Source: Micromonospora terminaliae
Lineage (GTDB): Bacteria > Actinomycetota > Actinomycetes > Mycobacteriales > Micromonosporaceae
Direction of reading: 5' to 3'
Assembly: GCF_009671205.1 (NCBI RefSeq)
Contig: NZ_CP045309.1
Coordinates: 1,860,001-1,924,000, forward strand
DNA: 64,000 nt
A program made the position numbers and the translations under genes. Of this stretch, positions 43,652-62,193 are shown piece by piece. Positions within the stretch are counted from its first letter, which is position 1. The number at the start of each line of letters is the position of its first letter. The notes beneath the pieces are model-generated. The model was not told the DNA's origin. It ran no database searches and saw only the letters and a list, made by a program, of their open reading frames with translations.

Positions 43652-43990
43652 CGGGTGGCCCGCAGCTTGCGCATGTTGCAGCACCGCGCCAAGGCGGTGT
43701 CACCTGAGCCGCCGCTGAGGGCGACCCAGCCTGGTTCTGCCATGGGCACCCGGTAGGGCAGCCAGGCATGCGACGACGCCTGTCTGCATCGTGAGGATCG
43801 GCCGCTCCACCGTGTCCGGAGCCGTAGTGAGTTAACGATTTCCCACCGGTGCCGATCACCTCTGGCCGTGCCAGCACCCGCGTTTACCAGGCGATACGAC
43901 AGCATGCCAGCGTGCATGCTCGCACCCGACAGGGGAAGACGCGGACGCATCGGTCTTGATTCGGAAATCGATTGCTGAAACAGTGGCGCC
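43652..43990. other. Intergenic region upstream of the kinase gene
   Basis: No supported gene lies here. A fragment that would read AWLPYRVPMAEPGWVALSGG on the minus strand could be more decayed coding sequence but is not recognisable. The right end holds the first LacI-type operator and presumably the kinase promoter. Confidence 0.5.
43961..43978. promoter_or_regulatory. LacI-type operator 1, 13 bases upstream of the kinase start
   Basis: TCGGAAATCGATTGCTGA is an imperfect palindrome around a central CG, with arms sharing GAAATCGATT. It closely matches two sites in the GH116/GH172 interval at 53.2-53.4 kb. Its position just ahead of the kinase ATG would let a repressor block transcription. 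Confidence 0.65.
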
Positions 43991-45529
43991 ATGAAGGTTG
44001 CGGCCGTCCTGGGCGTCGACATCGGCACATCGAGCAGCAAGGGCGTCCTCGTCGACACCGACGGCCGGGTCGTTCGCTCGGCGACCCGGTCGCACGAGGT
44101 GAGCCGCCCGCGACCGGGCTGGGTGGAGATGGACGCCGACGTCTGGTGGCAGGAGTTCGTCGCGCTCAGCCGGGAGCTCCTCGCACCGGGCGACGCCGAC
44201 GTCGTCGCCGTCGGCGTGAGCGGCATGGGACCGTGCGTGCTGCTGACGGACGCCGCAGGCATCCCGCTGCGTCCGGCCATCCTCTACGGCGTCGACACCC
44301 GCTCGACCCAGCAGATCGCCCGCCTCACCGAGCGTTTCGGCGCGGAGGAGATCCTCCGCCGGTGCGGCTCGGCGCTGTCCAGCCAGGCGGCGGGCGCCAA
44401 GGTGGCCTGGGTGGCCGACAACGAACCGGAGTTCTTCGCCCGGGCCCGACGGCTCTTCATGCCCAGTTCATGGCTCGCGTGGAAACTCACCGATCACTAC
44501 GTGCTCGACCAGCACTCCGCAAGCCAGTGCACACCGCTCTACGACACCGAGAGCCAGGACTGGTACGCGCCGTGGGCCACGGAGATCGCACCCGACCTGG
44601 ACCTGCCACCGCTGCGCTGGCCCGGCGAGGTGGCCGGGACGGTGACCTCGCGCGCGGCGGCGGAGGCCGGCCTGCCGGCGGGCGTCCCGGTGATCACGGG
44701 CACCATCGACGCCTGGTCGGAGGCGATCAGCGTGGGCGCCCAAGGCGTCGGCGACCTGATGCTGATGTACGGCACCACCATGTTCCTCGTCCACACCGTC
44801 ACGGCCCGCCTGACGAACCCGTCGCTGTGGGGCACGGTCGGCGCCCTGCCCAGGACGCGGAACCTCGCCGGCGGCCTGGCCACCTCGGGCGCGATCACGG
44901 CGTGGCTCCGCGAGCTGTTCGGCTCACCGGACTATCCCGAGCTGCTCCGGCTGGCCGAGGCCTCCGGCCCGGGCGCGCAGGGGCTGCTCCTGCTCCCGTA
45001 CTTCGCGGGGGAGCGCACGCCCATCCTGGATCCGCGGGCCCGCGGCTTCGTCGCCGGCCTCACCGTCTCGCACACGCGCGGGGACCTGTACCGCGCCGCG
45101 CTCGAAGCGACCGCGCTCGGCGTACGCCACAACATCGAGACGATCGAGGCGAGCGGTGGCGACATCCGACGGGTCGTGGCGGTCGGCGGCGGCACCCAGG
45201 GCGGGCTGTGGACCCAGATCGTCTCGGACGTCACCGGGCGTGCCCAGGTCATCCCGTCGCAGACCATCGGCGCGAGCTACGGAGCGGCGTTCCTCGCCGC
45301 GCGGACCGGGTGGCCCGCATCGATCGAGGCATGGAACCCCGTCAAGGAGATCCGGCAGCCCCGGGCCGAACTGGCCGCGGACTACGACGAGCTCTACGAG
45401 CTGTACCGGGAGCTGTACACGAGTTCCAAGCGGGTCGCGCACGCGCTCGCTGCACGTCAGGACCGTCTGATGGCCGCCGGCGCGCCGGCGGTCAGCGACA
45501 CCCCACGCACCGAAGGAGTCGCCCCATGA
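43991..45529 (+). CDS. FGGY-family pentulokinase, proposed D-ribulokinase
   Basis: A 512-residue sugar kinase. The first phosphate loop is VDIGTSSSKG (8-17). A substrate segment reads GVDTRSTQQ near 100. The catalytic base is Asp240 in TGTIDAWSEA, and the adenosine motif VVAVGGGTQGGLWTQI is near 395. These are the standard FGGY domains, closest to the xylulokinase/ribulokinase group. It would phosphorylate a ketopentose made by the isomerase that follows, with which it overlaps by four bases. No epimerase or aldolase is present, so the product is expected to enter the pentose phosphate pathway directly. D-ribulose as substrate is my inference. Confidence 0.85.
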   Translation: MKVAAVLGVDIGTSSSKGVLVDTDGRVVRSATRSHEVSRPRPGWVEMDADVWWQEFVALSRELLAPGDADVVAVGVSGMGPCVLLTDAAGIPLRPAILYGVDTRSTQQIARLTERFGAEEILRRCGSALSSQAAGAKVAWVADNEPEFFARARRLFMPSSWLAWKLTDHYVLDQHSASQCTPLYDTESQDWYAPWATEIAPDLDLPPLRWPGEVAGTVTSRAAAEAGLPAGVPVITGTIDAWSEAISVGAQGVGDLMLMYGTTMFLVHTVTARLTNPSLWGTVGALPRTRNLAGGLATSGAITAWLRELFGSPDYPELLRLAEASGPGAQGLLLLPYFAGERTPILDPRARGFVAGLTVSHTRGDLYRAALEATALGVRHNIETIEASGGDIRRVVAVGGGTQGGLWTQIVSDVTGRAQVIPSQTIGASYGAAFLAARTGWPASIEAWNPVKEIRQPRAELAADYDELYELYRELYTSSKRVAHALAARQDRLMAAGAPAVSDTPRTEGVAP

Positions 45530-47160
45530 CCCGTTACCCGCTGCCCGTGCTGGCCGAGCCGCCCGTCGCGGCGCCCGGCACCGTCTACACGGTGGCCAGT
45601 GGCGATCTCCGGCCCCGCGCGAACGTCACGTGCTGGCCCACTCAGCAGCAGCTGGAGGCCGACCTCACGGCCGCGGTCAACGCGCTCGGCTGGAAGGTCG
45701 AGCGTGGCCACGCGTTCGACCCGGACAAGGGCCACGGTTTCATCGACAGCCAGCGGGCCGGGATCGAGGTCTTCAAGGGCATCCCGGTCGACGCGCCGCT
45801 CATCGTGGTCGAGGCGGTCTGGCAGTACAGCCACCACGTCCTGGCCGGCCTGCGCAGCCACCGGGGACCGATCCTCATCGTGGCCAACTGGAGCGGCGAG
45901 TTCCCGGGACTGGTCGGCCTGCTCAACCTCACGGCGAGCCTCACCAAGGCGGGCGTGGCGCACTCCGCGCTGTGGAGCCGGGACTTCACCGACGACTGGG
46001 CGGTCAGCGGGCTGCGCACCTGGCTGGAGACCGGCGAGCTGCGCCACGACACCAGTCACGTCCGCGATCTGTCCACCCTGCCGGATGACGCGGAGGTCGA
46101 GCTCGGTCGCGCCCTGGCGGCGCAACTGGCCCGGGAGAAGGCCATCATCGGCGTCTTCGACGAGGGCTGCATGGGTATGTACAACGCGATCTTCGACGAC
46201 GAACTGATCAACCCGCTGGGCATCTACAAGGAGCGGCTGTCGCAGAGTGCGCTGGTCGCCGAGATGGCACGGGTCCCCGACGAGGAGGCCCACGCGGTCC
46301 GCCGCTGGCTGGACGAGGCCGGGTTGACCTTCCACACCGGCACCGACGAGGCGACCGAGCTCACCGACGCCCAGCTGACGAGCCAGTTCAAGATGTACAT
46401 CGCCGCTCTGCGCATCGCCGACGACTTCGGCCTGGACGCGGTCGGCATCCAGTACCAGCAGGGGCTGAAGGACACCGTCCCGGCCAGCGACCTGGCCGAG
46501 GGGCTGCTCAACAACGTCCAGCGGCCACCGGTACGCAGCCGCGACGGCAGCCGCGAACTGTACGCGGGCGCGCCGCTGCCGCACTTCAACGAGGTCGACG
46601 AGGGGGTGGCCGTCGACTCGTTGATCACCAACCGCATCTGGACCGCCATGGGCCTGGACCCGGCCACCACCCTGCACGACATCCGGTGGGGGGAGACCTA
46701 CGGCGACGACTTCGTCTGGGTGTTCGAGATCTCTGGCTCGGTGCCGGCGTCGCACCACGGCGGGTACGACAAGTCGTACAGCATGCGGCAGCCGCCGATG
46801 TTCTTCCCGCTCGGCGGCGGCACCCTGAGCGGGGTCTCCAAGCCAGGCGAGATCGTCTGGTCCCGGGTGTTCATCATGGACGGCGGGCTGCACGTCGACC
46901 TCGGCCGCGCGACCGTCGTCGAGCTTCCGGAGGAGGAGACCCGGCGCCGGCTGGAGGCCACGAACCCGCAGTGGCCGATCATGCATGCCGTGCTGCACGG
47001 GGTCGGTCGCGACCAGCTGATGGCCCGCCACAAGGCCAACCACGTGAACGTCGCCTACGCGCCGGACGCGGAGACCGCCGACCGGACACTGCGGGTGAAG
47101 GCCGCCATGTTCGCCGAACTCGGCGTGCAGGTGCACCTCTGCGGCGACGTCAACCTTTGA
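45526..47160 (+). CDS. L-fucose isomerase-family enzyme, proposed D-arabinose isomerase
   Basis: A 544-residue protein of the L-fucose/L-arabinose isomerase superfamily, close to the usual 590 residues of FucI. Key segments are FDEGCMGMYNAIFDDELINPL (about 211-231, with an acidic metal-site candidate), LDAVGIQYQQGLKD (about 303-316) and MHAVLHGVGRD with the later HKANHVNVAY (about 486-510). L-fucose isomerases also isomerise D-arabinose to D-ribulose and need Mn2+. The start is in an ATGA overlap behind GAAGGAG, so it is coupled to the kinase. With kinase and isomerase alone, D-arabinose fits better than L-fucose, which would need an aldolase. A bidirectional terminator follows. Confidence 0.85.
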   Translation: MTRYPLPVLAEPPVAAPGTVYTVASGDLRPRANVTCWPTQQQLEADLTAAVNALGWKVERGHAFDPDKGHGFIDSQRAGIEVFKGIPVDAPLIVVEAVWQYSHHVLAGLRSHRGPILIVANWSGEFPGLVGLLNLTASLTKAGVAHSALWSRDFTDDWAVSGLRTWLETGELRHDTSHVRDLSTLPDDAEVELGRALAAQLAREKAIIGVFDEGCMGMYNAIFDDELINPLGIYKERLSQSALVAEMARVPDEEAHAVRRWLDEAGLTFHTGTDEATELTDAQLTSQFKMYIAALRIADDFGLDAVGIQYQQGLKDTVPASDLAEGLLNNVQRPPVRSRDGSRELYAGAPLPHFNEVDEGVAVDSLITNRIWTAMGLDPATTLHDIRWGETYGDDFVWVFEISGSVPASHHGGYDKSYSMRQPPMFFPLGGGTLSGVSKPGEIVWSRVFIMDGGLHVDLGRATVVELPEEETRRRLEATNPQWPIMHAVLHGVGRDQLMARHKANHVNVAYAPDAETADRTLRVKAAMFAELGVQVHLCGDVNL

Positions 47161-47169
47161 GTTGGCGCT

Positions 47170-47208
47170 CGGCGACCCGGCCGGTCCGCAAGTCCGGCCG
47201 GGTCGCCG
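47170..47208. terminator. Bidirectional terminator between the isomerase and LacI genes
   Basis: CGGCGACCCGGCCGG and CCGGCCGGGTCGCCG form a perfect 15-bp stem with a 9-base loop. It lies 10 bases past the isomerase stop and 22 bases past the LacI stop, which converge here. Confidence 0.85.
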
Positions 47209-47229
47209 GGCCCGCGTGCCGGCAGACGG

Positions 47230-48228
47230 TCAGCTCGGGCGGGTGGAGCTGTCGCGCACCTGGAGCCCGGTGCTGAGCGTGACGGTCGACGGCAGCCGCG
47301 ACGGGTTGGCGATCCGCTCGGTGAGCAGGCCGGCGGCGGCGCGTCCCAGGTCGTACGTCGGCTGCGAGACGGTGCTCAACGACGGCCGGACCAGGTGTGC
47401 CCACGGAATGTCGTCGAATCCGACGACCCCGACCTCGTCCGGCACCCGGATGCCGCGGTCGACGAGGCATTCCACGGCGCCCACGGTCATCAGGTTGTTC
47501 GTGGCGAAGACGCTGTCGGGCGGGTTGTCGCTGTCGAGCAGCGAGGCCATGGCCCGGTAGCCGCCCTCCTCGCGGAAGTCCGCGTACCGCACCAGGGCGT
47601 CGGTGACCTCCCGTCCGCGTTCCCGCAGCGCGCGCTGGTAGCCCCGGAGCCGCTGGGCGGCCGTGGAGATCCGGCGGGGGCCGGTGATGCAGGCGACCCG
47701 CTGATAGCCGTTGTCGAGCAGGTGCGTGGTCGCCAGCCCGGCACCGTGCACGTTGTCGACGAGCACCGTGTCGATGGTGACGCCGCGCAGCTGACGGTCG
47801 ATCGCCACGACCGGGATGCGGGCCTCGAGGAGCCGGTTGATCACCGTCGAGCGGCCCGACGTGGAGATGATGACGCCGGCCATACGTTCGGCGAGGACCG
47901 CCGCGATGTACCGGGACTCCTTCTCCGGGTCCTCGTCGGTGTTGCACAGGACCACGGAGTAGCCGGCGCTCTGCGCGACGTCCTCGACCCCACGCACCAT
48001 GGAGGTGAAGAAGGGGTTGCCGATGTCGGAGATGATGACCGCCCAGAGGCTGGTCTGGCTCAGGCGCAGGTTACGGGCGACCGCGTTGGGGCGGTAGTCG
48101 AGGTCCTGCATCGCCTGGTGCACGCGTGCGGCCATGACTGGATCGACGGTGGTGCGGCCGTTCAGCACCCGCGAGACCGTCGCGGGGGAGACCTGAGCCT
48201 GCCGCGCCACGTCGTAGATCGTCGCCAT
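47230..48228 (-). CDS. LacI-family transcriptional repressor, proposed regulator of the locus
   Basis: A 332-residue regulator. The N-terminal helix-turn-helix and hinge read IYDVARQAQVSPATVSRVLNG (about 4-24), followed by a PBP-like sugar-binding core (LWAVIISDIGNPFFTSMVRGVEDVAQSAGYSVVLCNTDEDPEKE onwards). LacI proteins bind palindromes of about 16-20 bases with a central CG, exactly the type of site found three times in this locus. It is flanked by the sugar isomerase and the GH116 gene. The inducer is likely the imported sugar or an intermediate. I did not find a matching site upstream of its own start. Confidence 0.92.
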   Translation of the reverse strand: MATIYDVARQAQVSPATVSRVLNGRTTVDPVMAARVHQAMQDLDYRPNAVARNLRLSQTSLWAVIISDIGNPFFTSMVRGVEDVAQSAGYSVVLCNTDEDPEKESRYIAAVLAERMAGVIISTSGRSTVINRLLEARIPVVAIDRQLRGVTIDTVLVDNVHGAGLATTHLLDNGYQRVACITGPRRISTAAQRLRGYQRALRERGREVTDALVRYADFREEGGYRAMASLLDSDNPPDSVFATNNLMTVGAVECLVDRGIRVPDEVGVVGFDDIPWAHLVRPSLSTVSQPTYDLGRAAAGLLTERIANPSRLPSTVTLSTGLQVRDSSTRPS

Positions 48229-48282
48229 TCGCCTCCATCCGGTGGATTCCTACGATGACAAGCCCGGGAACGGGTGCCCGAT

Positions 48283-48306: not shown

Positions 48307-48357
48307 ACTGGGCATCTTACGGGCGGAAAGTGACGGATTAGTCACGGGCGTCCGCGC

Positions 48358-48394: not shown

Positions 48395-51300
48395 TCAGCC
48401 GTTGAGCATCACCTGGATGGCGTCGCCCCGACCGACCACGACCTCGGCGTCCAAGGTAACGAGAATGCGCCCGTCCCGGCACGACCAGTCACGCACCGGC
48501 AGGGTGCGATTGCGCAGACGTACCGTCACCCGTGCCGGGGACCGCGTCACCGCCAGGGCGATGCTGGATACCCGGAGGCGGCCGTACCGGACCTCGATGG
48601 TGCCGGTGAGGTGCCCGCCGTGGCGCTCCTGCTGGAACAGGCCCCACCCCTCCGCCGCGGTGAATGCGGCGGCGAACCTGTCGGGGCTGATCCGGGGCGC
48701 GAACCCGATGTGGCCGCGGGGGCCGTGGTACTCGAATCCGCAGGCCGCGAGGTAGACACCGTGGCTGGCCATGGCGCGGGCGTAGTGGTCGCCGCACTCG
48801 ATCTCGTTGTACGGGTTGCGCTTGCCTGCGGCGTACCGGTCGTGCACCGCCCGGGTGAGGGTGAGCCCTTCCTCGACCAGGCCCTCCTGGAGCATCTGTG
48901 CCGCGACCTGGTACTCCTGGCCAGTCCACACCTCGTTGAAATACATCGCGGCCCAGCTCGCCGGGTTCCCGGCCGCGGTGTCGGCGCCACCGTGCGGCCA
49001 GGTGGTCATCAGCATGCCGTACTCGTGGTCCATCGCGAACCAGCGGCCGCCCGGAATGACGCTGTCCTCCCGGTAGTCGGCGTGGTCGGGCGTGAAGTTG
49101 TACCGGTAGAGACTCTCCAGGGCGCTGATGGCCTGCTCCGCGGGCACGACACGGGGGAGCCCGAGCTGACCGGCGAGGCTCTGCCCGAAGAGCTGGTCGA
49201 TGTGGCACCCCCGATTGCTGTTGATCGCATCGGCGTGGGCCGGGTCGACCTCCTGAATGAAGTACTCACCGTTGAAGAGTTCCGTGGACAGGTACCGGCT
49301 GCCGGAATCGGCGAGGACCCGGCACCGGTCGGCGAACTCGGGCTGGCCCACCTCGTCGGCCATCGCCGCGCCCGCCCGCAGCGCCGCGACGTACATTCCG
49401 GTGATCCAGGCGATCTTTCCGTACCAGGTGGTGTCGAGCGTGTTCGGCTGCGGGCCGTCGAGCGTGCCGTCCGGGCCCACGTCGTGTTCCATGATCCACT
49501 CCAGCGCGCGCCGCAGCCGGGACCAGTTCACCCGCAGGTAGGTGTCGTCCGGCGCGGTGAGGTGTTCCCGGTAGCAGCGCAGGATGGTGCCGCACTGCCC
49601 GTCGGTGGCCCAGCCCATGTCGGCCTCGGCGCGGTTGCCGATCTGGCCCGTGTCCGGGTGGAATCCGATGCCGAGGTCCACGCGGCTGCGGGTGTCGCGT
49701 TCCAGCTGGGGGAAGAGCCGGGCGATGGACTGGGCGTAGTTCCACACGTGCTCACAGGTGCCCGGGCAGCAGTACACGCCCTCCCAGCCGTAGAACCGCC
49801 CGTCGTCGAACAGGTAGCAGGTGTTGGTGGCGAGCGTCGACGCGGGCGCCAGGGTGCGCTCCAGGAACCAGTGCGGCAGGGTGGCGTCGGCGTACCAGGT
49901 CTTCACCCAGATGCGGGTGTCGGCCTCCAACCGGTCGAGGTCGTGGGCGATGTGTTCCACCACCGCGCGGGCGTCGGCGAACCGGGTCGCGTAGTGCCGG
50001 CGCAGGCTGTCCGAGCCGCGCAGGAAGCCCAGCGAGACGCGGTCCGGCACGGGGAAGTGCCAGCCGAGCACGAATCGCACGGTGCGGCTCTGGCCGGGTG
50101 CGAGGCGGACCGCCACGCTCACCGACCCGGCCTGCCCGGCCAGCGAGCCGTCCACCTCGGTGGGGCCGGCCTCCGAGGCGAACACCTCGTCGAGGCTGTC
50201 CCACCCGGCGAGCGACGGGCGCGTCACCGCGCCTGCGTCGAGCGCGGCGAGGACGAGCGTGCCGTTGTCGGGCACCTGGTCCAGCGGCCGGGTGTCCGTC
50301 GGCACGTCGCTGAACACGATGCGGTCGACGTTGACGTGCCCCCACCCGCCGGTGTCCGCGTCCACGACCTCGATCACCGCCGTGCGCCCCTGGTACGCGG
50401 AGGCGTTCATCGTCGCCACGCTGACCGGCTCCGCGTCGCGGCCGGCCACGCTGGCCACCAGAACGCCGTCCACCAGGAGGTTGACGCACGTGCTGCCGCG
50501 GTGGCTCCCGCCGCCCACAGCCACGTTGACGTAGCGGCGCTCGACGGTGAACGGCCGGCTGGTCAGCTTGCCGGTGACCGCGTCGGCCCGGCCTGTGTCG
50601 CCGCCGGAGCCGCGGAAGTCGTGCGAGGTCACGAACCGCTGCCCGGACGCGCCGAGATCGCCGAAGCGCTTCATGTAGTCCGGAACCTCGGAGACCTGCA
50701 CCGGGCCGGCGCCGAACGCGGTGCCCTCGACGGTCCAGCCGTCGTAGGTGTCGCGCTCCCAGTCCTCGAACACGATCTCCGGGCGGGGTGCCACGTCGGT
50801 GAACACGATCCGGTCGACGTTGACGTGCCCCCACCCGCCGGTGTGGGCGTCGACGATCTCGATGACCGCGGACTTCCCCTGGTGTGCGGAGACGTCCAGG
50901 TAGACGCTGTGCATCGCCTCGGCGTTGCGGCCGGTCGCCGTGGCGACCACCGCGCCGTCGACGAGCACGTTGACGCAGGCCTGGCCGGGGTGGTTGCCGC
51001 CGCCGATGGACAGCCGGATCGACTTGCGTGAGACCGTGAAGGGGGCGCTGGTGAGCTTGCCGGTCGGCTCGTCGGCCCGGCCGATGTCGCCGTTGGCCCC
51101 GCGGAAGTCGTGCGAGGTGACCAGTCGCTGTCCGGTCGCGTTGAGCGGCCCGCCGCCCTTCATGTAGTCGGGTATCTCGGAGACCAGCACCGGGCCGGCG
51201 CCGAAGGCGGTGCCCTCGACGGTCCAGCCCTCGTAGGTGTCCCGCTCCCAGTCCTCGAAGACGACGTCGGGGCGGTCGGCCGTCTCGGTCTGCTCGGCGG

Positions 51301-52078
51301 CCGAGAACCGGACTCCGCGCAGCGACCGGTCGCCGAACGCCGTCGACCGCAGCGTGATCCCGCGTTGCGTCCTGGTGTCCAGGCAGACCGGATTCTCGAC
51401 GTAGCCGAGCAGCGTCGCGTCCACCGTCCGGTGCGACGTGTTGCGCAGCGTGTAGACCAGCACGGTCGCCGGCAGCGTCGAGTCCGCGACCGACAGCGGT
51501 ACGAACGGCGAGAACCCCTCCAGGGTCACCTCGACCGGAGCGTCGGCGGCTGAGTACCGGACGGTGCCGATGGGGTACTGCCCGGTGAAACGCACCTGGT
51601 CGAAGCCGGTGGCGTCGAGCGCGCGGGTCTGGACCCGCCCGCCAGCGCGGGTCCGCAGCGCGAAACCGTGCCGGACGGGCGAGGCGGGCTGCCGAGGGCT
51701 CGCGTACCCGACGTCGGTGGTGCCGGCCGCCGGCCGGTTGAAGATGTCCCAGTTCCACAGCCGCCCGTCGCCGCCGAGGTACAGCTGGCCGGTGGCGCCA
51801 CCGCCGACCGGCATGCCGAGCCAGCGCAGGTCGGCGCCGGCGTAGCTGGTGGGCTCGTCCCGGCGGTACAGCGCCGCGGACCAGTCGGGCGGCAGCGCCT
51901 TGTCGACCGGTACGCCGATCAGCCGATCCTCGGGTACGCCGAGGGCGGCGGCGGCTTCGGCCCGGGAGCCGGCGAGCACGGTGCCGGCGGTGAGCCCGAG
52001 GGAGAGGGTGAGGAACTGCCGGCGGTTCGGGCCGCAGGCGTTGCCGGGACAGCACTGGTCGTTCATCTGGTCTGCCAT
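48395..52078 (-). CDS. Secreted GH116 glycosidase with a duplicated inserted domain
   Basis: A 1,227-residue enzyme exported by the Tat pathway (NRRQFLTLSLG at 18-28, signal end near 42). The GH116 core is split: an N-terminal beta-sandwich (about 50-265) and a C-terminal (alpha/alpha)6 catalytic region (about 690-1140) with CEHVWNYAQSIARLFP, QPNTLDTTWYG and NPYNEIECGDHYARAM. By comparison with family members as I recall them, Glu766 would be the nucleophile and Asp882 the acid/base. Two near-identical ~158-residue modules (271-429 and 435-592, both opening VFEDWERDTY) are inserted between the two parts and resemble sugar-binding beta-sandwiches. GH116 includes glucosidases, xylosidases and an exo-beta-D-arabinofuranosidase; context favours the last. 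It is cotranscribed with the COG0523 gene 15 bases upstream. Confidence 0.85.
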   Translation of the reverse strand: MADQMNDQCCPGNACGPNRRQFLTLSLGLTAGTVLAGSRAEAAAALGVPEDRLIGVPVDKALPPDWSAALYRRDEPTSYAGADLRWLGMPVGGGATGQLYLGGDGRLWNWDIFNRPAAGTTDVGYASPRQPASPVRHGFALRTRAGGRVQTRALDATGFDQVRFTGQYPIGTVRYSAADAPVEVTLEGFSPFVPLSVADSTLPATVLVYTLRNTSHRTVDATLLGYVENPVCLDTRTQRGITLRSTAFGDRSLRGVRFSAAEQTETADRPDVVFEDWERDTYEGWTVEGTAFGAGPVLVSEIPDYMKGGGPLNATGQRLVTSHDFRGANGDIGRADEPTGKLTSAPFTVSRKSIRLSIGGGNHPGQACVNVLVDGAVVATATGRNAEAMHSVYLDVSAHQGKSAVIEIVDAHTGGWGHVNVDRIVFTDVAPRPEIVFEDWERDTYDGWTVEGTAFGAGPVQVSEVPDYMKRFGDLGASGQRFVTSHDFRGSGGDTGRADAVTGKLTSRPFTVERRYVNVAVGGGSHRGSTCVNLLVDGVLVASVAGRDAEPVSVATMNASAYQGRTAVIEVVDADTGGWGHVNVDRIVFSDVPTDTRPLDQVPDNGTLVLAALDAGAVTRPSLAGWDSLDEVFASEAGPTEVDGSLAGQAGSVSVAVRLAPGQSRTVRFVLGWHFPVPDRVSLGFLRGSDSLRRHYATRFADARAVVEHIAHDLDRLEADTRIWVKTWYADATLPHWFLERTLAPASTLATNTCYLFDDGRFYGWEGVYCCPGTCEHVWNYAQSIARLFPQLERDTRSRVDLGIGFHPDTGQIGNRAEADMGWATDGQCGTILRCYREHLTAPDDTYLRVNWSRLRRALEWIMEHDVGPDGTLDGPQPNTLDTTWYGKIAWITGMYVAALRAGAAMADEVGQPEFADRCRVLADSGSRYLSTELFNGEYFIQEVDPAHADAINSNRGCHIDQLFGQSLAGQLGLPRVVPAEQAISALESLYRYNFTPDHADYREDSVIPGGRWFAMDHEYGMLMTTWPHGGADTAAGNPASWAAMYFNEVWTGQEYQVAAQMLQEGLVEEGLTLTRAVHDRYAAGKRNPYNEIECGDHYARAMASHGVYLAACGFEYHGPRGHIGFAPRISPDRFAAAFTAAEGWGLFQQERHGGHLTGTIEVRYGRLRVSSIALAVTRSPARVTVRLRNRTLPVRDWSCRDGRILVTLDAEVVVGRGDAIQVMLNG

Positions 52079-53222: not shown

Positions 53223-53240
53223 CGAGAAATCGTTTGCTCG
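53223..53240. promoter_or_regulatory. LacI-type operator 2, controlling the COG0523-GH116 operon
   Basis: CGAGAAATCGTTTGCTCG is a near-palindrome with seven of nine base pairs matching around a central CG. It lies 47 bases upstream of the COG0523 start on the minus strand and shares GAGAAATCG with operator 3. Confidence 0.7.
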
Positions 53241-53365: not shown

Positions 53366-53383
53366 CGAGAAATCGATTCCTTG
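53366..53383. promoter_or_regulatory. LacI-type operator 3, controlling the GH172 gene
   Basis: CGAGAAATCGATTCCTTG, in the context CAGCGAGAAATCG that also surrounds operator 2, lies 50 bases upstream of the GH172 ATG. Seven of nine pairs match. The interval between the two divergent genes therefore carries one operator per promoter. Confidence 0.7.
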
Positions 53384-53433: not shown

Positions 53434-56400
53434 ATGACACCCACCACCCGCGCACCACGTACCTCGTTCCGGCGGCTGCTCGGTGCCGCCGCCGCGGCGA
53501 CGCTCGTCGCCGGCTCGGCCGTCGTCGGTCTCACCGGGCCCGCCACGGCCTCCACCGGACCGACCACGAACGGCCCCGTCGGCTGGGACGTCTACCGCCG
53601 GCTCGACCGGCTCCCGGAACTGACCGACGGATCCCGGGCCTACCAGTTCTCCAGCTTCGACCGCAGCGGCGGCAACGACGACGGCTTCTCCGGCCGGTAC
53701 TCCTGCCTGCGCACCAGCGCCGACGGCTGCGTCATCGCCGAGGCCAGCGGCGCCGGCGAGATCGACTCCATCTGGTTCACCCGCGACGAGGGCAACGTCT
53801 CCGCCACGGGCAGGATCAAGGTCGTCCTCGACGGAGAGACCGTGCTCGACGCCAAGCTCCAGGATGTCGTGGACGGCAAGCTCGGTGCCCCCTTCGTCTA
53901 CCCGGTGGTCGCCAACGCGGCGCAGAGCTCCGGGGGCGTCTACATCAAGGCGCCGATGACCTACCGCAGCTCGATGCGGGTCACCACCGAGAAGAACCCG
54001 ATCTTCCACCACGTCTCCTACCGGAAGTTCACCACCTCCGACGGCGTGCGCACCTTCGACCCCACCGACCGGGCCGAGGACGTCATCGCGCAGCTCAAGG
54101 CCGCCGGCACCCGCGACCCCAAGCCCGCCCAGCCGGGCGCCGCGACGGCCGAGCGGACCTTCGCCGTCCCCGCGGGCGGCCGGGCGACCCTCGCCAGTGG
54201 CGTAGGCCCCGGCGCGATCACCGCACTCCAGCTGAAGATTCCCCAGCTCGTCGGCGCGCCCCAGCCGATCGCCGACGACGGCCGCGCCTTCGGTGCCGGC
54301 GGCGGCAGCGAGTTCACCGTCGCCGTCGACCCGGCCAACACCGGCGTACGGCTCACCCGCCGGCTCGACCCACACATCGGGCACCAGCGGGCGCGGATCC
54401 TGGTCGACGGAGCACCGGTCGCTGAGTGGCCGGCCAACGACCCGGTGCCGTTCGGCACCTGGCTGGACCAGAGCGTCGAACTGCCGGCGAGCGCCACGGC
54501 CGGCAAGACGAAGCTGACCATCCGCAACGAGTTCATCTCCTCCGACCTCGACGTCAACGAGTTCACGTACTGGGTCGACAGCCTCGTCTCCGGCACCGCG
54601 AAGCGGACCGACACCGTCGACGTGGGCCCGGCGCACACCGACGTCGAGGCGGCGCACGGCTACCGGATCACCGCGCAGACCTGGCAGGGCAGCAACACCT
54701 TGTCCTACCCGGCCGACGACGACCGCAAGGCGGCCGTCGCCGCGTCCGACGCGGTGCTGCGCGACACCCGGCTGCGCATCTCGTTCGACGACAGGACCAC
54801 GGTGGACGCACCCCTCGGCGAGTTCTTCGGCACCGGCCTCGGGCTGCACTCCGTCCGGTCCCTGATGTTCGGCGTCGACCCGGCGACCGCGACCCTGTCG
54901 GCCTGGTGGCCGATGCCCTACCGGTCGCGCTGGTCGATCGAGCTGCGCAACGGATCCGACGTGGCGATCAAGCCGTCGGTGGCCACCGTGACCACCGAGA
55001 GCTCCGCCCGCTGGGCGGCGGCCCTGCGGCCGACCGGCGACACCGGCTACTTCCGGGCTACCGCGACCAGCGCCGACACCACGCCGGGAGCGGACCATCT
55101 CTTCCTCGACGTCGCCGGACGGGGGAAGTTCGTGGGGGTCACCCACACCATGGAGGGGCACATCCCCGCCGGCAACCAGCGCAACTACCTGGAGGGTGAC
55201 GAGCGGGTCTACGTGGACGGCGCGCAGAGCCCGAGCATCCACGGCACCGGCACCGAGGACTTCTACGAGAGCGGCTGGTACTTCAACCACGGCACGTTCT
55301 CCGCGCCCATGAACGGCAACCCGGCCCACGAGGTCGCCGCCTACGGCTGCCAGTACGACTGCACCGGGGCGTACCGGCTCATGCTCGCGGAGTCGGTGGC
55401 GTTCTCGACCGGACTGCGGTTCGGCATCGAGCACGGCCCGGGCGACCAGGACCCGGCCCGGTACGGCTCCACGGCGTACTGGTACGGCCAGGACACCCTC
55501 GGGCAGCGCTGGACGGACACGGTCGACGTGGGCGACGCCGTCAGCGAGACGGCTCACCAGTACGCGTCCGGCGGCGACCGGACGGTGCTCACGGCGACCT
55601 TCGAAGGCGACGACGGCGCGCCCCGACCGGTGACCGACGACGTCCGCGCCTCCACCGAACCGATCCGGTTCCGGGTGACCCTCGACGAGGACAACGCGGG
55701 CGCGGTCCTGCGCCGGGTCGGCGACCAGTCGGCCGGGTACCAGTCGGTGGCGGTCGATGTTGACGGGCAGGACGCCGGCACGTGGTCGCAGCCGCTGGCC
55801 AACGCGTCGCACCGGTGGTTGGAGGACGAGTACCGGCTCCCGGCCGCGCTCACCCGCGGCAGGGACGCGGTGACCGTCACGCTGACGCCCACCGCCGGCG
55901 CTCCGGCCTGGTCCGCGGCCCGGTACGCGGTGCTCAGCCTGGTCACGCCGTTCACCGACCACACGCCGCCGGGCGCGGTCAGCGGGCTCACCGCCACCAG
56001 CGGCACGACCAACGCCGTGACGGTGGCCTGGCGGCCGGCCGCGGACGACGTCTACGCCCCCAGGTACGAGGTGTTCGCCTCCCGCCAGGCGGACTTCACG
56101 CCGGGACCGGGCAACCGCGTCGGCACCACGACCCGCCCGAGCTTCGAGCACGCGGGTCTGGGGCTGCGCGAGACCTGGTACTACCGGGTGCGCGCGGTGG
56201 ATGCGGCCGGCAACGCCGGGCCGTACTCGCCGACCGCCTCAGCCAGCACCGGCGACACGCTGCGGATCGAAGGCGAATCGCTCCTGCCGGCGGTCAGCGC
56301 CGACGCGCCGGCCGACCCGCAGAGCGACTGCTGCGGCATCCACTGGTCGCAGAGCGCGCAGCTGTGGTTCCACGCGAACGGGCCGAACCAGAGCGTCACC

Positions 56401-56685
56401 GTCAACTTCACGGTGCCCACCACCGGGACCTATGACCTGCGCCTCGTGCAGACGCTGGCCCGGGACTACGGCACCAACACGGTGGCGATCGACGGTGCCC
56501 GGATCGGGCCGGCCTTCGACGCGTACCACTCGCCGGAGGTGGTCGTGAGCGACCCGCTCGACTACGGCCAGCGAGAGCTGACGGCGGGCCGGCACACGCT
56601 CACGCTCACCGTGACCGGCAAGGCCGCCGCGGCGGTCGGCTACCTGGCAGGGCTCGACTACGTCGAGGCGCGGCTCGTGTCGTGA
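53434..56685 (+). CDS. Secreted GH172 (DUF2961) glycosidase with FN3 and CBM-like domains
   Basis: A 1,083-residue exported enzyme. The signal peptide carries RRLLGAAAAATLV and ends near 38. GH172 is spread over two stretches: the first (about 55-230) has FDRSGGNDDGFSGRYS, GEIDSIWFTRDEG and HHVSYRKFTT; the second (about 440-700) has LGEFFGTGLGLH, SAWWPMPYRSRW and YLEGDERVYVDG plus HGTGTEDFYESGWYF. Glu587 and Glu608, 21 residues apart, match the nucleophile/acid spacing of the characterised difructose-anhydride enzyme as I recall. An FN3-like domain (about 845-930) and a C-terminal CBM-like domain (about 935-1083) follow. GH172 includes exo-alpha-D-arabinofuranosidases. SD GGAAAGG precedes the ATG. 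Confidence 0.87.
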   Translation: MTPTTRAPRTSFRRLLGAAAAATLVAGSAVVGLTGPATASTGPTTNGPVGWDVYRRLDRLPELTDGSRAYQFSSFDRSGGNDDGFSGRYSCLRTSADGCVIAEASGAGEIDSIWFTRDEGNVSATGRIKVVLDGETVLDAKLQDVVDGKLGAPFVYPVVANAAQSSGGVYIKAPMTYRSSMRVTTEKNPIFHHVSYRKFTTSDGVRTFDPTDRAEDVIAQLKAAGTRDPKPAQPGAATAERTFAVPAGGRATLASGVGPGAITALQLKIPQLVGAPQPIADDGRAFGAGGGSEFTVAVDPANTGVRLTRRLDPHIGHQRARILVDGAPVAEWPANDPVPFGTWLDQSVELPASATAGKTKLTIRNEFISSDLDVNEFTYWVDSLVSGTAKRTDTVDVGPAHTDVEAAHGYRITAQTWQGSNTLSYPADDDRKAAVAASDAVLRDTRLRISFDDRTTVDAPLGEFFGTGLGLHSVRSLMFGVDPATATLSAWWPMPYRSRWSIELRNGSDVAIKPSVATVTTESSARWAAALRPTGDTGYFRATATSADTTPGADHLFLDVAGRGKFVGVTHTMEGHIPAGNQRNYLEGDERVYVDGAQSPSIHGTGTEDFYESGWYFNHGTFSAPMNGNPAHEVAAYGCQYDCTGAYRLMLAESVAFSTGLRFGIEHGPGDQDPARYGSTAYWYGQDTLGQRWTDTVDVGDAVSETAHQYASGGDRTVLTATFEGDDGAPRPVTDDVRASTEPIRFRVTLDEDNAGAVLRRVGDQSAGYQSVAVDVDGQDAGTWSQPLANASHRWLEDEYRLPAALTRGRDAVTVTLTPTAGAPAWSAARYAVLSLVTPFTDHTPPGAVSGLTATSGTTNAVTVAWRPAADDVYAPRYEVFASRQADFTPGPGNRVGTTTRPSFEHAGLGLRETWYYRVRAVDAAGNAGPYSPTASASTGDTLRIEGESLLPAVSADAPADPQSDCCGIHWSQSAQLWFHANGPNQSVTVNFTVPTTGTYDLRLVQTLARDYGTNTVAIDGARIGPAFDAYHSPEVVVSDPLDYGQRELTAGRHTLTLTVTGKAAAAVGYLAGLDYVEARLVS

Positions 56686-56770: not shown

Positions 56771-58309
56771 ATGACAGAACACCCGCTGGTCCGGATGACC
56801 GGCATCGGCAAGCGGTTCGGCGGTGTGCACGCCTGCCGCGACATCGACCTCACCGTCCGGGCGGGTGAGGTGCACGCGCTGCTCGGCGAGAACGGCGCCG
56901 GCAAGTCGACACTGATCAACATCCTCTCCGGCGTGATCACCGAGTACGACGGCACCATCGAGCTGGACGGGCGGCCGGTGAGTTTCGCCGGCCCGTCCGA
57001 CGCCCAACGCGCCGGCATCGCCACGATCCACCAGGAGCTGGACCTGGTGGCCGGGCTGTCCATCGCGGAGAACATGTTCCTCGGCCGCGAGCCGCGCACC
57101 CGGGTGGGCACCGTCGACCTCCGGCGGATGCGCCGGCAGGCCACGGACCATCTGCGTACGCTCGGCGCCGACCTCGAACCGCGGCGGCTCGTCGGGTCGT
57201 TGCGCGTCGGCGAGCAGCAACTGGTCGAGATCGGCCGGGCCCTGTCGCTCAACGCGCGGGTGCTGATCATGGACGAGCCGACCGCCGCCCTGGCGGACGC
57301 CGAGGTCGAACGCCTCTTCGCGACGATCGCGGAGCTGCGCCGGGCCGGCGTCGGCATCGTCTACATCTCGCACCGGATGGCGGAGATCGAGGTCGTCGCG
57401 GACCGGGTCACCGTGCTGCGCAACGGCGGCGTCGCGGGCAGCGTCGACCCGAAGACCGCCTCCCGCGACGACATCATCCAGCTGATGGTCGGCCGGTCGG
57501 TCGACGCGCTCTACGGCGAGGGGCGCAACGAGCCCGGGGACGTGCTGCTCGACGTCCGTGGACTCGCCGTGGCGCCACGCCGGCCGACACCCGGGCGGAC
57601 CGAGCCGGCCGGTGTCGACCTCACGGTGCGTTCCGGCGAGATCGTCGGACTCGCCGGGCTGATGGGCGCGGGCCGCACCGAACTTCTCGAGACGCTCTTC
57701 GGCGCCGGGGGCTCCGGCCGCCGCGCCGGCCAGGTGACGTTCGACGGCCGCCCGTACCGCCCGCACGGCCCACGGTCGGCCCTGGCGCGCGGGGTGGCGT
57801 TCGTTCCCGAGGACCGGCGTGGCGCCGGGCTGATGCTCGAGCACTCGGTGAGCGACAACGTCGTGCTCTCCGCGCTGTCGACACTATCGAGGCTCGGCCT
57901 CGTACGCCGGCAGGCGGTGAAGCGGACGGTGGCCGGGCAGCTCAGCGCCCTGGCGGTGAAGGCCGCCTCGCCCGTGGTCGCCACCGCCACGCTCTCCGGC
58001 GGCAACCAGCAGAAGGTCGTGTTCGCCAAGCAACTGCTGACGCGACCGCGGCTGCTGCTGCTCGACGAGCCGACCAGAGGCGTCGACATCGGGGCCAAGG
58101 CCGAGATCTACCGGCTGCTGCACCAACTCGCCGACACCGGCATGGCGATCCTGCTCGCCTCGTCCGAACTGCCCGAGCTGCTCAGCATCTGTGACCGGGT
58201 GGTCGTCCTGCACCGCGGTCACACCGTGGCCGCGTTGCCCCGCGCGTCCGCCACCCAACAAGCGATCCTCGCCGCGGCCAACGGGGCCGATGCCAAGGAG
58301 GCCCGATGA
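56771..58309 (+). CDS. Sugar ABC transporter ATP-binding protein (RbsA-like)
   Basis: A 512-residue cytosolic protein with two fused ATPase domains. The first has Walker A GENGAGKST (39-47) and Walker B VLIMDEPTAALAD near 158; the second has the usual degenerate loop GLMGAGRTE near 297, the signature LSGGNQQKVV near 412 and LLLLDEPTRGVDIGAK near 433. This tandem layout is typical of pentose and monosaccharide importers such as RbsA, XylG and AraG. The ATG follows GAGGTG. It overlaps the permease gene by four bases and would power uptake of the released sugar. Confidence 0.92.
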   Translation: MTEHPLVRMTGIGKRFGGVHACRDIDLTVRAGEVHALLGENGAGKSTLINILSGVITEYDGTIELDGRPVSFAGPSDAQRAGIATIHQELDLVAGLSIAENMFLGREPRTRVGTVDLRRMRRQATDHLRTLGADLEPRRLVGSLRVGEQQLVEIGRALSLNARVLIMDEPTAALADAEVERLFATIAELRRAGVGIVYISHRMAEIEVVADRVTVLRNGGVAGSVDPKTASRDDIIQLMVGRSVDALYGEGRNEPGDVLLDVRGLAVAPRRPTPGRTEPAGVDLTVRSGEIVGLAGLMGAGRTELLETLFGAGGSGRRAGQVTFDGRPYRPHGPRSALARGVAFVPEDRRGAGLMLEHSVSDNVVLSALSTLSRLGLVRRQAVKRTVAGQLSALAVKAASPVVATATLSGGNQQKVVFAKQLLTRPRLLLLDEPTRGVDIGAKAEIYRLLHQLADTGMAILLASSELPELLSICDRVVVLHRGHTVAALPRASATQQAILAAANGADAKEAR

Positions 58310-59370
58310 ACTCGCCCAACCCCACCTCCGTCGCTGAGGCGCCGCGCGAGGCGCCGCCCCGACGCGGGCCGATCCGACTGCCGCGGGACCGGCACGCGAT
58401 CGTCGACAGCTTCTTCCGCTTCCAGAGCCTGTTCGGCCTGGCCGCGGTCTTCATCATCGCGATCGCCGTGTCGCCCGTCCGCAACGGCGAGAGCGTCTTC
58501 CTCAGCTCCGGGAACCTCGCCAACATCGTCCGGGCGGTCTCGGAGATCGGCATCATCGCGGTCGGGATGACGTTCGTAATCCTGATCGGCGGCATCGACC
58601 TGTCCGTCGGGGCGGTGCTCGGGCTCGCCGCGGTCGGGTCCGCCACCCTCATGGTCGACAGCGGCATGGGCATCCTCCCGACGGTCCTGATCGTGCTGTT
58701 GATCGGCACCGCGTTCGGCGCCACCCAGGGTGCGATCGTCGCCCGGCTCGGCATCCAGTCGTTCATCGTCACCCTCGCCGGCCTGCAGGCGGCCCGGGGC
58801 ATCGCGCGGATGTGGTCCGGCGGGCTGGGCATCCCCATCGCCTACGGTGACGGGCCGCAGGAGGCCCCGGAGGCGTTCTCGACGCTGAGCGGGTCCATCA
58901 ACGGGGTCCTCCCGGTGCCGGCGCTGCTGTTCCTCGCCATCGGCGTCGGCGCGCTGCTGGTGCTGCGCACCACGGCCTTCGCCCGGCACGTGTACGCCAT
59001 CGGCGGCAATGAGAAGGCCGCCCGGCTGTCCGGGGTGCCGGTGCGCCGTGTCCGCATCACCGTGTTCGCGATCTCCGGCCTGCTCGCCGCGCTGGCCGGG
59101 ATCATCCACGCCGGGCAGCTCAACCAGGGCAGCCCGAACGACGGCGCCGGCTACGAGCTGGACGCGATCGCGGCCGTGGTCATCGGCGGGACGAGCCTTG
59201 CCGGTGGCAGTGGATCCATGGGCGGCACGATCGCCGGCGCCCTGCTGCTCGGGATCCTCAACAACATCCTCGCGCTCAACAACATCGACGCGAACGTGCA
59301 GCTGGTCGTCAAGGGCCTGGTCATCGTGGCTGCCGCCGCGCTGCAGAAGCTACGTCCTCGCATCGCCTGA
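58306..59370 (+). CDS. Sugar ABC transporter permease (RbsC-like)
   Basis: A 354-residue inner-membrane protein with about eight to ten helices. IGIIAVGMTFVILIGGIDLSVGAVLGLAAVGSATLM, AIVARLGIQSFIVTLAGLQAARGIARMWSGG and VIGGTSLAGGSGSMGGTIAGALLLGILNNILALNN are RbsC-family hallmarks. It forms the channel of the importer. The ATGA overlap with the ATPase gene indicates coupling, and the substrate-binding protein starts 23 bases after its stop. Confidence 0.93.
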   Translation: MNSPNPTSVAEAPREAPPRRGPIRLPRDRHAIVDSFFRFQSLFGLAAVFIIAIAVSPVRNGESVFLSSGNLANIVRAVSEIGIIAVGMTFVILIGGIDLSVGAVLGLAAVGSATLMVDSGMGILPTVLIVLLIGTAFGATQGAIVARLGIQSFIVTLAGLQAARGIARMWSGGLGIPIAYGDGPQEAPEAFSTLSGSINGVLPVPALLFLAIGVGALLVLRTTAFARHVYAIGGNEKAARLSGVPVRRVRITVFAISGLLAALAGIIHAGQLNQGSPNDGAGYELDAIAAVVIGGTSLAGGSGSMGGTIAGALLLGILNNILALNNIDANVQLVVKGLVIVAAAALQKLRPRIA

Positions 59371-59393
59371 CCCACCACCCTATGGAGGAAACC

Positions 59394-60398
59394 ATGCGTT
59401 ACGCCCGAAGAGCCGCCACAATCGTGGCGCTCGCCGCGCTCGTCGCCACCTCGGCGTGCAGCGTCGAGGACGACCCCGGCAGCAGCAGCTCCGACGCCTC
59501 GGCGAAGTGCGGCAGCGGCAAGGACTTCCTGATCGGCATGTCCCAGGCCAACAACGCCGAGCCGTACCGGCAGGTCATGAACGACGACGTGAGCAACGCG
59601 GCGAAGGCCGTGCCCGGCTTCAAGGTGGTCGTCTCGGACGCGGCTCAGGACAACAGCAAGCAGGTGGCCGACGTGGAGAACTTCCTCTCCCAGGGCATCA
59701 ACCTGCTGATCATCTCGCCGAACGAGGCGAAGCCGCTGACCGCGGTGGTCAAGAAGGCGTACGACCAGGGGATCCCGGTCATCGTGCTGGACCGCAAGGT
59801 CGAGGGTGACGCGTACACGGCCTTCATCGGTGGCGACAACGTCGCAATCGGAAAGGCGGCGGGCGAGTACTACGCCAAGACGCTGCTGCCGCAGGGCGGC
59901 AAGGTCGTGGAGATCTCCGGCCTGCCCGGCTCCACCCCGGCCGCCGAGCGCGCCCAGGGCTTCCGGGAGGGCATCGCCAGCAACCCGAAGATCCAGATCG
60001 TGGCGAGCCAGACCGCCGAGTGGCTGCGGGAGAAGGGGCAGAGCGTCATGGACGCGATGCTCAAGTCGACCCCGGACATCGACGCGGTGTACGCGCACAA
60101 CGACCCGATGGCCGAAGGTGCCTACCTGGCGGCGAAGGCGGCCGGCAAGGAGACCGCGATCAAGTTCACCGGGATCGACGCGCTGCCCGTCCCCTCCGGC
60201 GGCATCAAGGCCGTCGAGCAGGGTCGCCTCCAGGCGACGTTCCAGTACCCGACCGGCGGGCGTGAGGCGATCGACCTGGCCAAGAAGATCCTCGTCGACT
60301 GCGCCAAGGACGTCCCGAAGACGACCACCCTCGGCACCCAGCAGATCACCAAGGAGAACGCCGCGGAGGTCTACACGAAGCTCGGCGGCAAGCAGTAG
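59394..60398 (+). CDS. Sugar-binding lipoprotein of the ABC importer (RbsB-like)
   Basis: A 334-residue surface lipoprotein with signal ending ATSAC (lipobox) and the periplasmic-binding fold of ribose/pentose proteins: [66 protein letters not shown] and [21 protein letters not shown]. The ATG at 59394 has GGAGGA closely upstream; an earlier in-frame ATG at 59382 lacks a site. It would bind the monosaccharide freed outside the cell, proposed D-arabinose or short D-arabino-oligosaccharides. A strong terminator follows. Confidence 0.92.
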
Positions 60399-60404
60399 GG
60401 CCGG

Positions 60405-60443
60405 GCGCTGGTCCGCCGCCGGAGGTAGGCGGCGGACCAGCGC
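60405..60443 (+). terminator. Terminator of the sugar ABC operon
   Basis: GCGCTGGTCCGCCGCC and GGCGGCGGACCAGCGC form a perfect 16-bp stem with a 7-base loop, six bases past the binding-protein stop. It separates the ABC operon from the GH43-like gene. Confidence 0.9.
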
Positions 60444-60501
60444 GGCCGCGCGCCCGTCCGGCGCACCCCCCCACGCCACCCGTTCACCCCTGGAGGAACG
60501 C

Positions 60502-62193
60502 ATGCCCCGCCCACCGTCCCACGTCGGTCGGCTGTCCGCGCTGCTCGCCCTGGCCCTGGGACTGATCGTGGCCCCGGCGCCGGCCCGAGCCGCCGACAGC
60601 GCCGCGCCGAGCAACCAGCCGTACGAGAACCGGTCCGTCCAGGTCACCGCCGGCGAGTTCGTGAACGTGTACGACCCCAGCGTCGGCGAGGACGAGCGCT
60701 GGTACTACAACGACCACACCATGGTGCGTGACCGCGCGACCGGCCTGTGGCACGTCTTCGCGATCACCCATGCCGAGCCGGCCAACCCGTTGGACGAGAA
60801 GTTCTTCGGCCATGCCACGGCACCGTCACCCCGTGGCCCCTGGACGAAGCAGCCGTTCGCCCTCGAGGCCGACCCGAGCGCGGGGGAGACGCACATCTGG
60901 GCGCCGTACGTGCTGTTCCACGCCGGCACCTACTACATGTTCTACGCGGGCGGCACCGCCGACCACGAGGCGTACCGGATGCACCTCGCCACCTCCAAGG
61001 ACCTGACGACCTGGACACGGCACCCGGGCAACCCGCTGTTCACCGACGGCTTCGACGGCCGGGACCCGATGGTGACCCGCGTCGGCAACCAGTGGGTCAT
61101 GTACTACACCGCCAACAGCACCCCGGCCGGTGGCCACCACATCGTCGCCTACCGCACGAGCCGTGACCTGGTGCACTGGAGCGACCGGCGGACGGCCTTC
61201 GAGCACCCGGCCACCGGCACCTTCGGCGGGCCGACCGAATCGCCGTTCGTGGTGCACCGCGATGGCTCCTGGTATCTCTTCGTCTGCTGCGAGAGCGGCT
61301 ACCAGGACACCCGCGTGTACCGCAGCGAAGACCCGTTCCACTTCACCGTCGACCAGCTCGCCGGCCGGATCGAGGCGCACGCCGCGGAGGTCGTCAAGGA
61401 CGACTCCGGCGCCGGCCAGTGGTACGTCACCGGCGCCGGCTGGGGTCAGGGCGGGCTCTGGCTGGCGCCGCTGAACTGGCGTACGCCGGTCGTGACGAAG
61501 GGGAGGCTCGTCAGCACGCCCTACTACCGGGCCGTCGTGCAGACCGCACCCGAGTCCCGGCTGGTCTCCTACGAGGCCGACCCGACCGGCCAAGGCGCGT
61601 ACCGGCCCGTGACGGACTCGTCGTTCCGTTCCACGGCGCCCTACCTCGCGGTCGGCACCTTCGGGCCCACCGACACGGCGGGGGCCGCCCGGACCGTGAC
61701 CGTGTCGGCCGACGGCACGGACACGCTCCTGGCCGGCATCCCGCTCGGCGACGAGCCGGTGACCGTCGACTGGCGCTTCCGGTTCGCACCGACCACGGTG
61801 GACGTTGACCTCGTCTGGCACGTGACCGGCCCCACCAGCGCGCCGGTCTGGGAGGCCGCCTGGAACATCGACTCGGCCCTGCCCCGGCTCGCGGACCCCG
61901 CCGGCGGCGATCGCGACGGGGACGCGGCGGGCTTCACGCCGTGGACACTCGCCACGGACGACACGACCACGCTCGCGGTCGCGTACCGGGACGGGTCGGC
62001 CTGGAGCGAGGACAACCGGTGGTTCAACCGGCCGAGCGGCTCGATCGCCTGGCAGCCCCTGTGGCAGCCGGGCGGGCGGTCACTTCCGGTGGGCGACCTC
62101 CCGGGCGGGACCTGGCGCATCGGCGTGAGCGGCACGCCCGCCGACACCGGGTTTGCAGAGGCCCTCGCGGCCTCGCTCAACGGCGCGGCATAA
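60502..62193 (+). CDS. Secreted GH43-like five-bladed propeller glycosidase
   Basis: A 563-residue exported enzyme. Residues 1-31 are a Sec signal ([22 protein letters not shown]). The propeller (about 50-330) carries the expected acidic triad: Asp71 in YYNDHT (base), Asp188 in GRDPMV (pKa modulator) and Glu246 in PTESPF (acid). [19 protein letters not shown] and [18 protein letters not shown] are typical of GH43/GH32-related enzymes. The C-terminal part (about 370-563) is a beta-rich domain of unknown role. It would release terminal furanoses or pyranoses; I infer action on arabinofuranose-containing side chains. SD GGAGGAACG precedes the ATG. No LacI operator is visible directly upstream. 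Confidence 0.82.

Follow-up and report, generated by a model that had tools for sequence, protein, structure and literature searches.

D-Arabinan-degrading activities were reported in 2023 for glycoside hydrolase (GH) families GH183 and GH116 (PMC10509167, PMC10115798). According to the available text of the first report, the D-arabinan locus of Microbacterium arabinogalactanolyticum comprises EndoMA1/2 (GH183), ExoMA1 (GH172) and ExoMA2 (GH116), and Microbacterium was proposed to use GH183 for cleavage outside the cell, take up the oligosaccharides and complete their breakdown inside with exo-enzymes that are not exported (PMC10509167). PUL42 of D. gadei, a Bacteroidota-type locus with GH183, is described in the available text with GH172 enzymes, a predicted fucose isomerase and a putative GH116 (PMC10115798). 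Here we analyze a locus of ten genes in Micromonospora terminaliae (genome, 6,742,112 bases) that combines several of these functions in a different architecture. It lies within the window, that is, the whole 64-kb stretch of DNA analyzed.

Judged by its gene content, operator sites, homology, predicted folds, conserved catalytic residues and conserved gene order, this locus is probably a LacI-controlled regulon for using glycans that contain D-arabinofuranose (D-Araf), with exo-release outside the cell, monosaccharide import and a D-ribulose 5-phosphate route. It shares with the M. arabinogalactanolyticum locus a GH172, a GH116 of the ExoMA2 subfamily, an isomerase, a kinase and an ABC importer. 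As far as the available text of that report goes, GH183 is present there but has no match in the M. terminaliae genome; the exo-enzymes carry export signals here and none there; the importer is of the Rbs type here, whereas an SBP_bac_8 binding protein serves there; and M. terminaliae adds a GH43/GH32-like partner and a CobW protein. The available description of PUL42 includes neither an Rbs importer nor a GH172-linked GH43/GH32-like enzyme.

In the proposed pathway, the exported GH172 would remove terminal alpha-D-Araf and the exported GH116 terminal beta-D-Araf, while the GH43/GH32-like propeller enzyme would act on the same chains, probably opening internal or differently linked residues. 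Free D-arabinose would enter through the Rbs-type importer, be converted to D-ribulose by the FucI-fold isomerase and be phosphorylated to D-ribulose 5-phosphate by the FGGY kinase. The LacI repressor would bind three operators and presumably be released by D-arabinose or a product. We infer the substrates, the binding and inducer of the repressor, and the polymer; our guess for the last is mycobacterial arabinogalactan or lipoarabinomannan (LAM), or a LAM-like wall glycan of other actinobacteria.

D-Arabinose itself is well supported as the sugar used, on the strength of homology, gene order and the isomerase model, as an earlier note made from the sequence alone had proposed. The isomerase, kinase and LacI have homologues in GH183 D-arabinan loci, where they are arranged in a similar way, which points to D-arabinose as the monomer. 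In a class sample of 345 genomes, the isomerase was found in 15, the window's own included (relatives 67-85% identical), and GH183 (PF13810) in 79. GH183 lay within 12 kb of the isomerase in 4 of these 15 genomes (G289, G168, G225 and G183; G and L numbers denote genomes and loci), and in G289 and G168 a single run held LacI, kinase (64-66%), ExoMA2-type GH116 and isomerase. A more divergent GH116 was found within 10 kb of the isomerase in G275, and three genomes without a nearby GH183 (G033, G336 and G138) carried an Rbs-type ATPase nearby instead. In G028, a GH116-GH172-importer-kinase locus contained a clear FucI-family isomerase (Fucose_iso_C, 147 bits), which looks like replacement by a different enzyme of the same fold.

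The isomerase and kinase reading frames share four bases (ATGA); the pair is thus adjacent and coupled but not translationally fused, as had first been claimed. The assignment of the isomerase to the L-fucose/D-arabinose type stands on its fold and metal-site residues and not on Pfam, whose L-fucose isomerase domains scored 23.8 and 22.4 bits, under their cut-offs of 28 and 29.3. Its structure, predicted without any classical FucI sequence, retrieved L-fucose/D-arabinose isomerase in a fold search, and the metal-site residues of the family (1fui, 3a9r) are kept. The protein is very divergent from these enzymes, and a single-sequence search of the PDB returned nothing significant. A profile search gave E = 8.8e-10 with the distant G028 sequence in the alignment and E = 0.21 without it; that match was dropped as evidence because it was driven by one sequence, and we relied on the fold search of the G028-free model instead. 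The isomerase is 98% identical to proteins of M. halotolerans and M. chersina. Comparison of the kinase-isomerase DNA with plasmids yielded 27 records, mostly from Deinococcus and Sinorhizobium, that were uninformative on substrate. Two Deinococcus plasmids (NZ_CP083456.1 and NZ_CP021082.1) carry an adjacent kinase-isomerase pair at ~68-69% DNA identity, pointing to a wide spread of the pair.

The GH183 profile had no match in the whole M. terminaliae genome. The same profile matched 41 of 151 Micromonospora genomes, so the search itself works. The absence of GH183 from the window was therefore borne out, and the search for a copy elsewhere in the genome, proposed at the time, came back empty. 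Among the 151 genomes, the isomerase was present in 38, the GH43-like protein in 24 and this GH116 in 7. All 24 and all 7 fell inside the 38 isomerase genomes (hypergeometric probabilities of 2e-18 and 4e-5, uncorrected for ancestry). GH183 and the isomerase co-occurred in 16 genomes, on separate contigs or with 78 kb or more between them.

Isomerase loci were read in 34 of the 38 genomes besides the window (G408, G436 and G447 were not included), and the unit isomerase-LacI-GH172-importer-GH43-like recurred in 13 of the 34. For 3 of the 13, the stretch read ended at or just short of the GH43-like gene, which was placed by the genus-wide search for this protein. Eight units had no GH116 and CobW, with kinase and operators in place (G375, G411, G451, G421, G389, G433, G430 and G353). 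The other five carried GH116 and CobW as in the window, in stretches that ended short of the kinase (G365, G439, G409, G369 and G363). A more distant GH172/GH43-like pair (~50% and 53-56%) was found beside a kinase or importer in seven genomes (G348, G430, G468, G475, G428, G362 and G473). G363 also contains a second, canonical D-arabinan locus (L115, G363:C32:5000-24999) with GH183 (399 bits), an ExoMA2-like GH116 and an ExoMA1-like GH172.

The ten genes apparently form three transcription units: kinase-isomerase, CobW-GH116-LacI, and GH172-ATPase-permease-binding protein-GH43-like (Table 1). The operator pattern RGAAATCGNTTNCT, searched exactly with zero mismatches allowed, occurred three times in the genome, every time inside the locus; read backwards, it had no genome match. 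Within the limits of an exact pattern, the regulon is thus the locus alone. The operator upstream of the kinase recurs in relatives. These results agree with the repressor, matching operators and single LacI regulon proposed earlier, and other parts of that proposal held as well. All three glycosidase translations start with an export-signal-like sequence, read by eye and not by a signal-peptide program; Peripla_BP_4 and BPD_transp_2 matches confirm an Rbs-type importer; and a Pfam scan of the locus genes found neither an aldolase nor an epimerase beside the isomerase and kinase, the rest of the genome not having been searched for either. By its sequence the importer is of the monosaccharide type, with no SBP_bac_8 oligosaccharide-type binding protein found in the locus, which points to uptake of free sugar following extracellular exo-hydrolysis.

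Table 1. Features of the M. terminaliae locus (positions in the window) and of a second isomerase-containing operon type.
Feature	Position	Strand	Evidence or remark
LacI-type operator GGAAATCGATTGCT	43963..43976	+	14 bases 5' of kinase start codon; exact match, one of three in the genome
FGGY pentulose kinase, proposed D-ribulokinase	43991..45529	+	PDB FGGY kinases/xylulokinases up to 214 bits; NCBIfam XylB 305.8 bits, under cut-off of 380
Isomerase, L-fucose/D-arabinose isomerase fold, proposed D-arabinose isomerase	45526..47160	+	Fold of model; metal-site residues
LacI/RbsR-like repressor	47230..48228	-	Pfam LacI 60 bits, Peripla_BP_3 119 bits
GH116, 1227 aa, twin-arginine translocation (Tat)-type signal, CBM35-like insert; proposed exo-beta-D-arabinofuranosidase	48395..52078	-	Pfam; ExoMA2 match; conserved active-site residues
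CobW/COG0523 GTPase (metallochaperone-like)	52094..53176	-	Pfam cobW 88.6 bits; absent from the earlier list
Operator AGAAATCGTTTGCT	53225..53238	+	Upstream of CobW-GH116
Operator AGAAATCGATTCCT	53368..53381	+	Upstream of GH172
GH172 (DUF2961), 1083 aa; proposed exo-alpha-D-arabinofuranosidase	53434..56685	+	Pfam DUF2961 218.1 bits (cut-off 27); PDB matches
ABC importer ATPase, Rbs/Xyl type	56771..58309	+	
ABC importer permease, Rbs type (BPD_transp_2)	58306..59370	+	
Sugar-binding lipoprotein, Rbs type, RbsB-like	59382..60398 (start codon may be 59394)	+	Peripla_BP_4 175 bits
Exported GH43/GH32-like beta-propeller hydrolase, GH172 partner; candidate internal-cutting or second exo D-arabinofuranosidase	60502..62193	+	
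Putative ulosonic-acid (Kdo?) operon TctBA-BNR-DHDPS-isomerase-kinase	L125:7750-14818; also L135-L139, L143		

The predicted D-arabinofuranosidase-type GH172 is supported by its DUF2961 score and by both catalytic glutamates, E587 and E608, which are kept together with D609. Its DUF2961 core is shared with alphaFFase1, the GH172 founder and a fructan anhydride enzyme (PMC8605356), from which it differs in large extra domains. These are inserted and C-terminal, with a weak fn3 match and a C-terminus that matches the carbohydrate-binding module 7ehg.

The GH43-like protein passed the Pfam cut-offs of both GH43 (53.4 bits; cut-off 32.2) and GH32N (44.7 bits; cut-off 22.1), and its motifs and model resemble GH32 as much as GH43. 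It has a five-bladed propeller in common with GH43 enzymes and the GH32 endo-levanase BT1760, and its ND / RDP / TE motifs resemble those of GH32, but identity over the propeller is ~18%, and the locus protein adds a C-terminal domain and the tie to GH172. No GH183 structure was among the 50 matches listed in a fold search with its model, which carries no weight against a relation. Scanning named genomes with this protein gave 31 loci, 26 of which carried the catalytic region of a GH172 in the flank, on the same strand. In the exceptions, L175 had the C-terminal module only, and four had none within the flank (three Saccharopolyspora and Amycolatopsis antarctica). The two enzymes were in one frame with no intervening stop in seven loci (five Kribbella and two Nakamurella), and three of these fusions were single open reading frames of 1590-1663 aa (L156, L165 and L172). 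The N. lactea fusion carries both Pfam domains, and an Rbs-type importer precedes the fusion in both Nakamurella.

Such fusions argue for a single common substrate. Sequence comparison places the GH172 and GH43-like enzymes, as usual partners, in the conserved core, and what had been counted simply as a third glycosidase is better read as a regular companion of GH172, joined to it in one protein in some genera and as close to GH32 as to GH43. It is our best candidate for an enzyme that cuts internally, and in that role it would make up for the missing GH183. We suggest tentatively, and with some doubt, that it founds a new D-arabinan-cleaving family, adjacent or fused to GH172, that does the job of GH183 and enables an exo-acting, monosaccharide-importing pathway without it. 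GH43-like or GH172 proteins with FG-GAP repeat neighbors or domains were observed in Amycolatopsis arida, Mangrovihabitans and Actinophytocola (L170 and L176; P0230, P0236, P0237 and P0240).

The best PDB match of the GH116 was ExoMA2 (255.7 bits, as opposed to 68 bits for beta-glucosidases), and a 22-row alignment showed that the ExoMA2 active-site residues E431, H446, R483 and D557 are kept. An apparent replacement of R483 by Ile was rejected; the pairwise alignment column reads I beside a gap, and the multiple alignment shows Arg. The earlier placement of a GH116 in a D-arabinan locus thus stands as to enzyme type, but the gene belongs to an optional cassette. CobW adjoined this GH116 type in 14 of the 15 loci with a visible flank (6 Micromonospora, the window included, and 8 of 9 others, the exception being G028), and the two genes were jointly absent from 8 other Micromonospora core loci. 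By gene order, GH116 and CobW travel together. Their near-constant adjacency and joint absence suggest that the GH116, whose N-terminus carries a twin-arginine motif, is Tat-exported after metal loading in the cytoplasm. Ahead of the twin arginines, residues 9-20 (near 52078, negative strand) contain a Cys-Cys...Cys motif, which may serve CobW for docking or metal binding. Nine of the 11 rows have residues aligned at this point, and all nine keep the first two Cys; G235/G154 have no such motif. Six histidines (839, 865, 959, 1079, 1118 and 1123) are invariant in 11 GH116 proteins of this type, while every one of the 10 aligned ExoMA2-like relatives has other residues at these positions, making them a candidate metal site.

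Several observations weigh against D-arabinan use as we describe it. The support comes from genes, homology and predicted folds, and the enzyme activities are predictions. The isomerase profile match to D-arabinose isomerase was lost when G028 was left out. The four GH116 residues are invariant in all 22 rows and hence do not discriminate among paralogues, and the GH172 has no tryptophan equivalent to W267 of alphaFFase1. The 24-of-24 and 7-of-7 counts come from related genomes. No GH183 was found near the isomerase in 11 of the 15 class genomes, several of them on short contigs, and five genomes had a complete GH116-CobW-importer-GH172 module with no isomerase (G164, G124, G217, G144 and G134); in these the product may be a different sugar or be used by a different route. 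Finally, the isomerase also occurred with no arabinan enzyme in view, and the GH43-like protein was missing from 14 of the 38 Micromonospora that have the isomerase. Their isomerases lay in an ulosonic-type operon (six whole, and G347 in part), beside a short GH172 with a CUT1-type binding protein (G429 and G434), in a rhamnose-type neighborhood (G354), with an aldolase and a second kinase (G390 and G399) or in uninformative neighborhoods (G349 and G453).

The alternative that survives best keeps the pathway and changes the target to small D-Araf glycosides, other actinobacterial wall polymers or sugar recycled from the cell's own wall. It is compatible with our interpretation in all but the polymer, and we consider it a serious possibility, though not the favored one. 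The lack of a GH183 match in the genome speaks for it, as do enzymes that look exo-acting or are unassigned. Relatives of GH172/GH43-like also hint at wall turnover, with an M23 peptidase domain in the FG-GAP neighbor in A. arida and an L,D-transpeptidase alongside in two Nakamurella. The patchiness of the isomerase and GH116 in the genus (38 and 7 of 151) suits an optional nutrient better than own-wall recycling. Literature searches on which enantiomer of arabinose the Micromonospora wall contains yielded nothing usable.

It is less likely that the GH43-like protein is a D-galactofuranosidase and that the locus strips both the galactan and the arabinan of arabinogalactan, since fusion to GH172 suggests the same sugar and no galactose pathway gene was among the scanned locus genes. 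Since GH172 and GH32 are families that act on fructofuranosides, we also considered the use of fructans or difructose anhydride; the GH172 would then be an alpha-D-fructofuranosidase, the GH32-like protein a fructanase and the imported sugar D-fructose. This is very unlikely. Fructose requires no aldose isomerase, the scanned locus genes include no PfkB or ROK kinase, and the best match of the GH116 is an exo-beta-D-arabinofuranosidase; we set the idea aside on the isomerase-kinase pair, which is common to GH183 loci, and its GH183 neighbors. Least probable of all is use of L-fucose (or L-galactose or D-altrose) by way of the isomerase, whose fold is that of L-fucose isomerase, with glycosidases acting on such sugars: no class II (fuculose-type) aldolase is among the scanned locus genes (no such search covered the genome), the genome holds no further exact operator, the gene order is common to GH183 loci, and GH172 and GH116 are not known to act on fucosides.

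We return to D-arabinose as the substrate of the isomerase, since a second genomic context is consistent with it. Among 40 loci scanned, seven Micromonospora loci contained the isomerase (82-84%) in the run TctB-TctA-BNR(sialidase-like)-DHDPS-family aldolase-isomerase, with Pfam names taken from two of the loci. A kinase follows in six of the seven, and the seventh is cut by a contig end. An eighth locus comprised aldolase-isomerase-kinase only, and a ninth (L100) had an aldolase relative at 37%. N-Acetylneuraminate lyase (NAL)-family enzymes make 3-deoxy-D-manno-octulosonic acid (Kdo) from pyruvate and D-arabinose, according to the available text of PMC4016182. The simplest reading by analogy is that this operon takes up and cleaves an eight-carbon ulosonic acid, with a Kdo lyase yielding pyruvate and D-arabinose; the isomerase would then once more be found where D-arabinose is formed. 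None of the curated family models identified the aldolase above its cut-off. A more distant isomerase (58%) is accompanied by two FGGY kinases and a class II fructose-bisphosphate-type aldolase (L133:6138-12336), so the family may have a further use.

Both the enzymes and the idea of the pathway have been published since 2023. What is new is an architecture that does without GH183 and pairs exo-enzymes with monosaccharide import, the partner enzyme of GH172 with its fusions, and the CobW cassette. Searches of an open-licence library, at the level of listings and abstracts, brought up no description of these; the only loci of this kind that they showed were the GH183-type ones from the two 2023 papers. 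Few D-arabinan-breaking enzymes are known, and a second architecture offers new reagents for dissecting mycobacterial-type walls. The use of related bacteria's walls by soil actinomycetes becomes testable, and the isomerase family may mark D-arabinose metabolism outside arabinan as well, for example in the putative ulosonic-acid operon.

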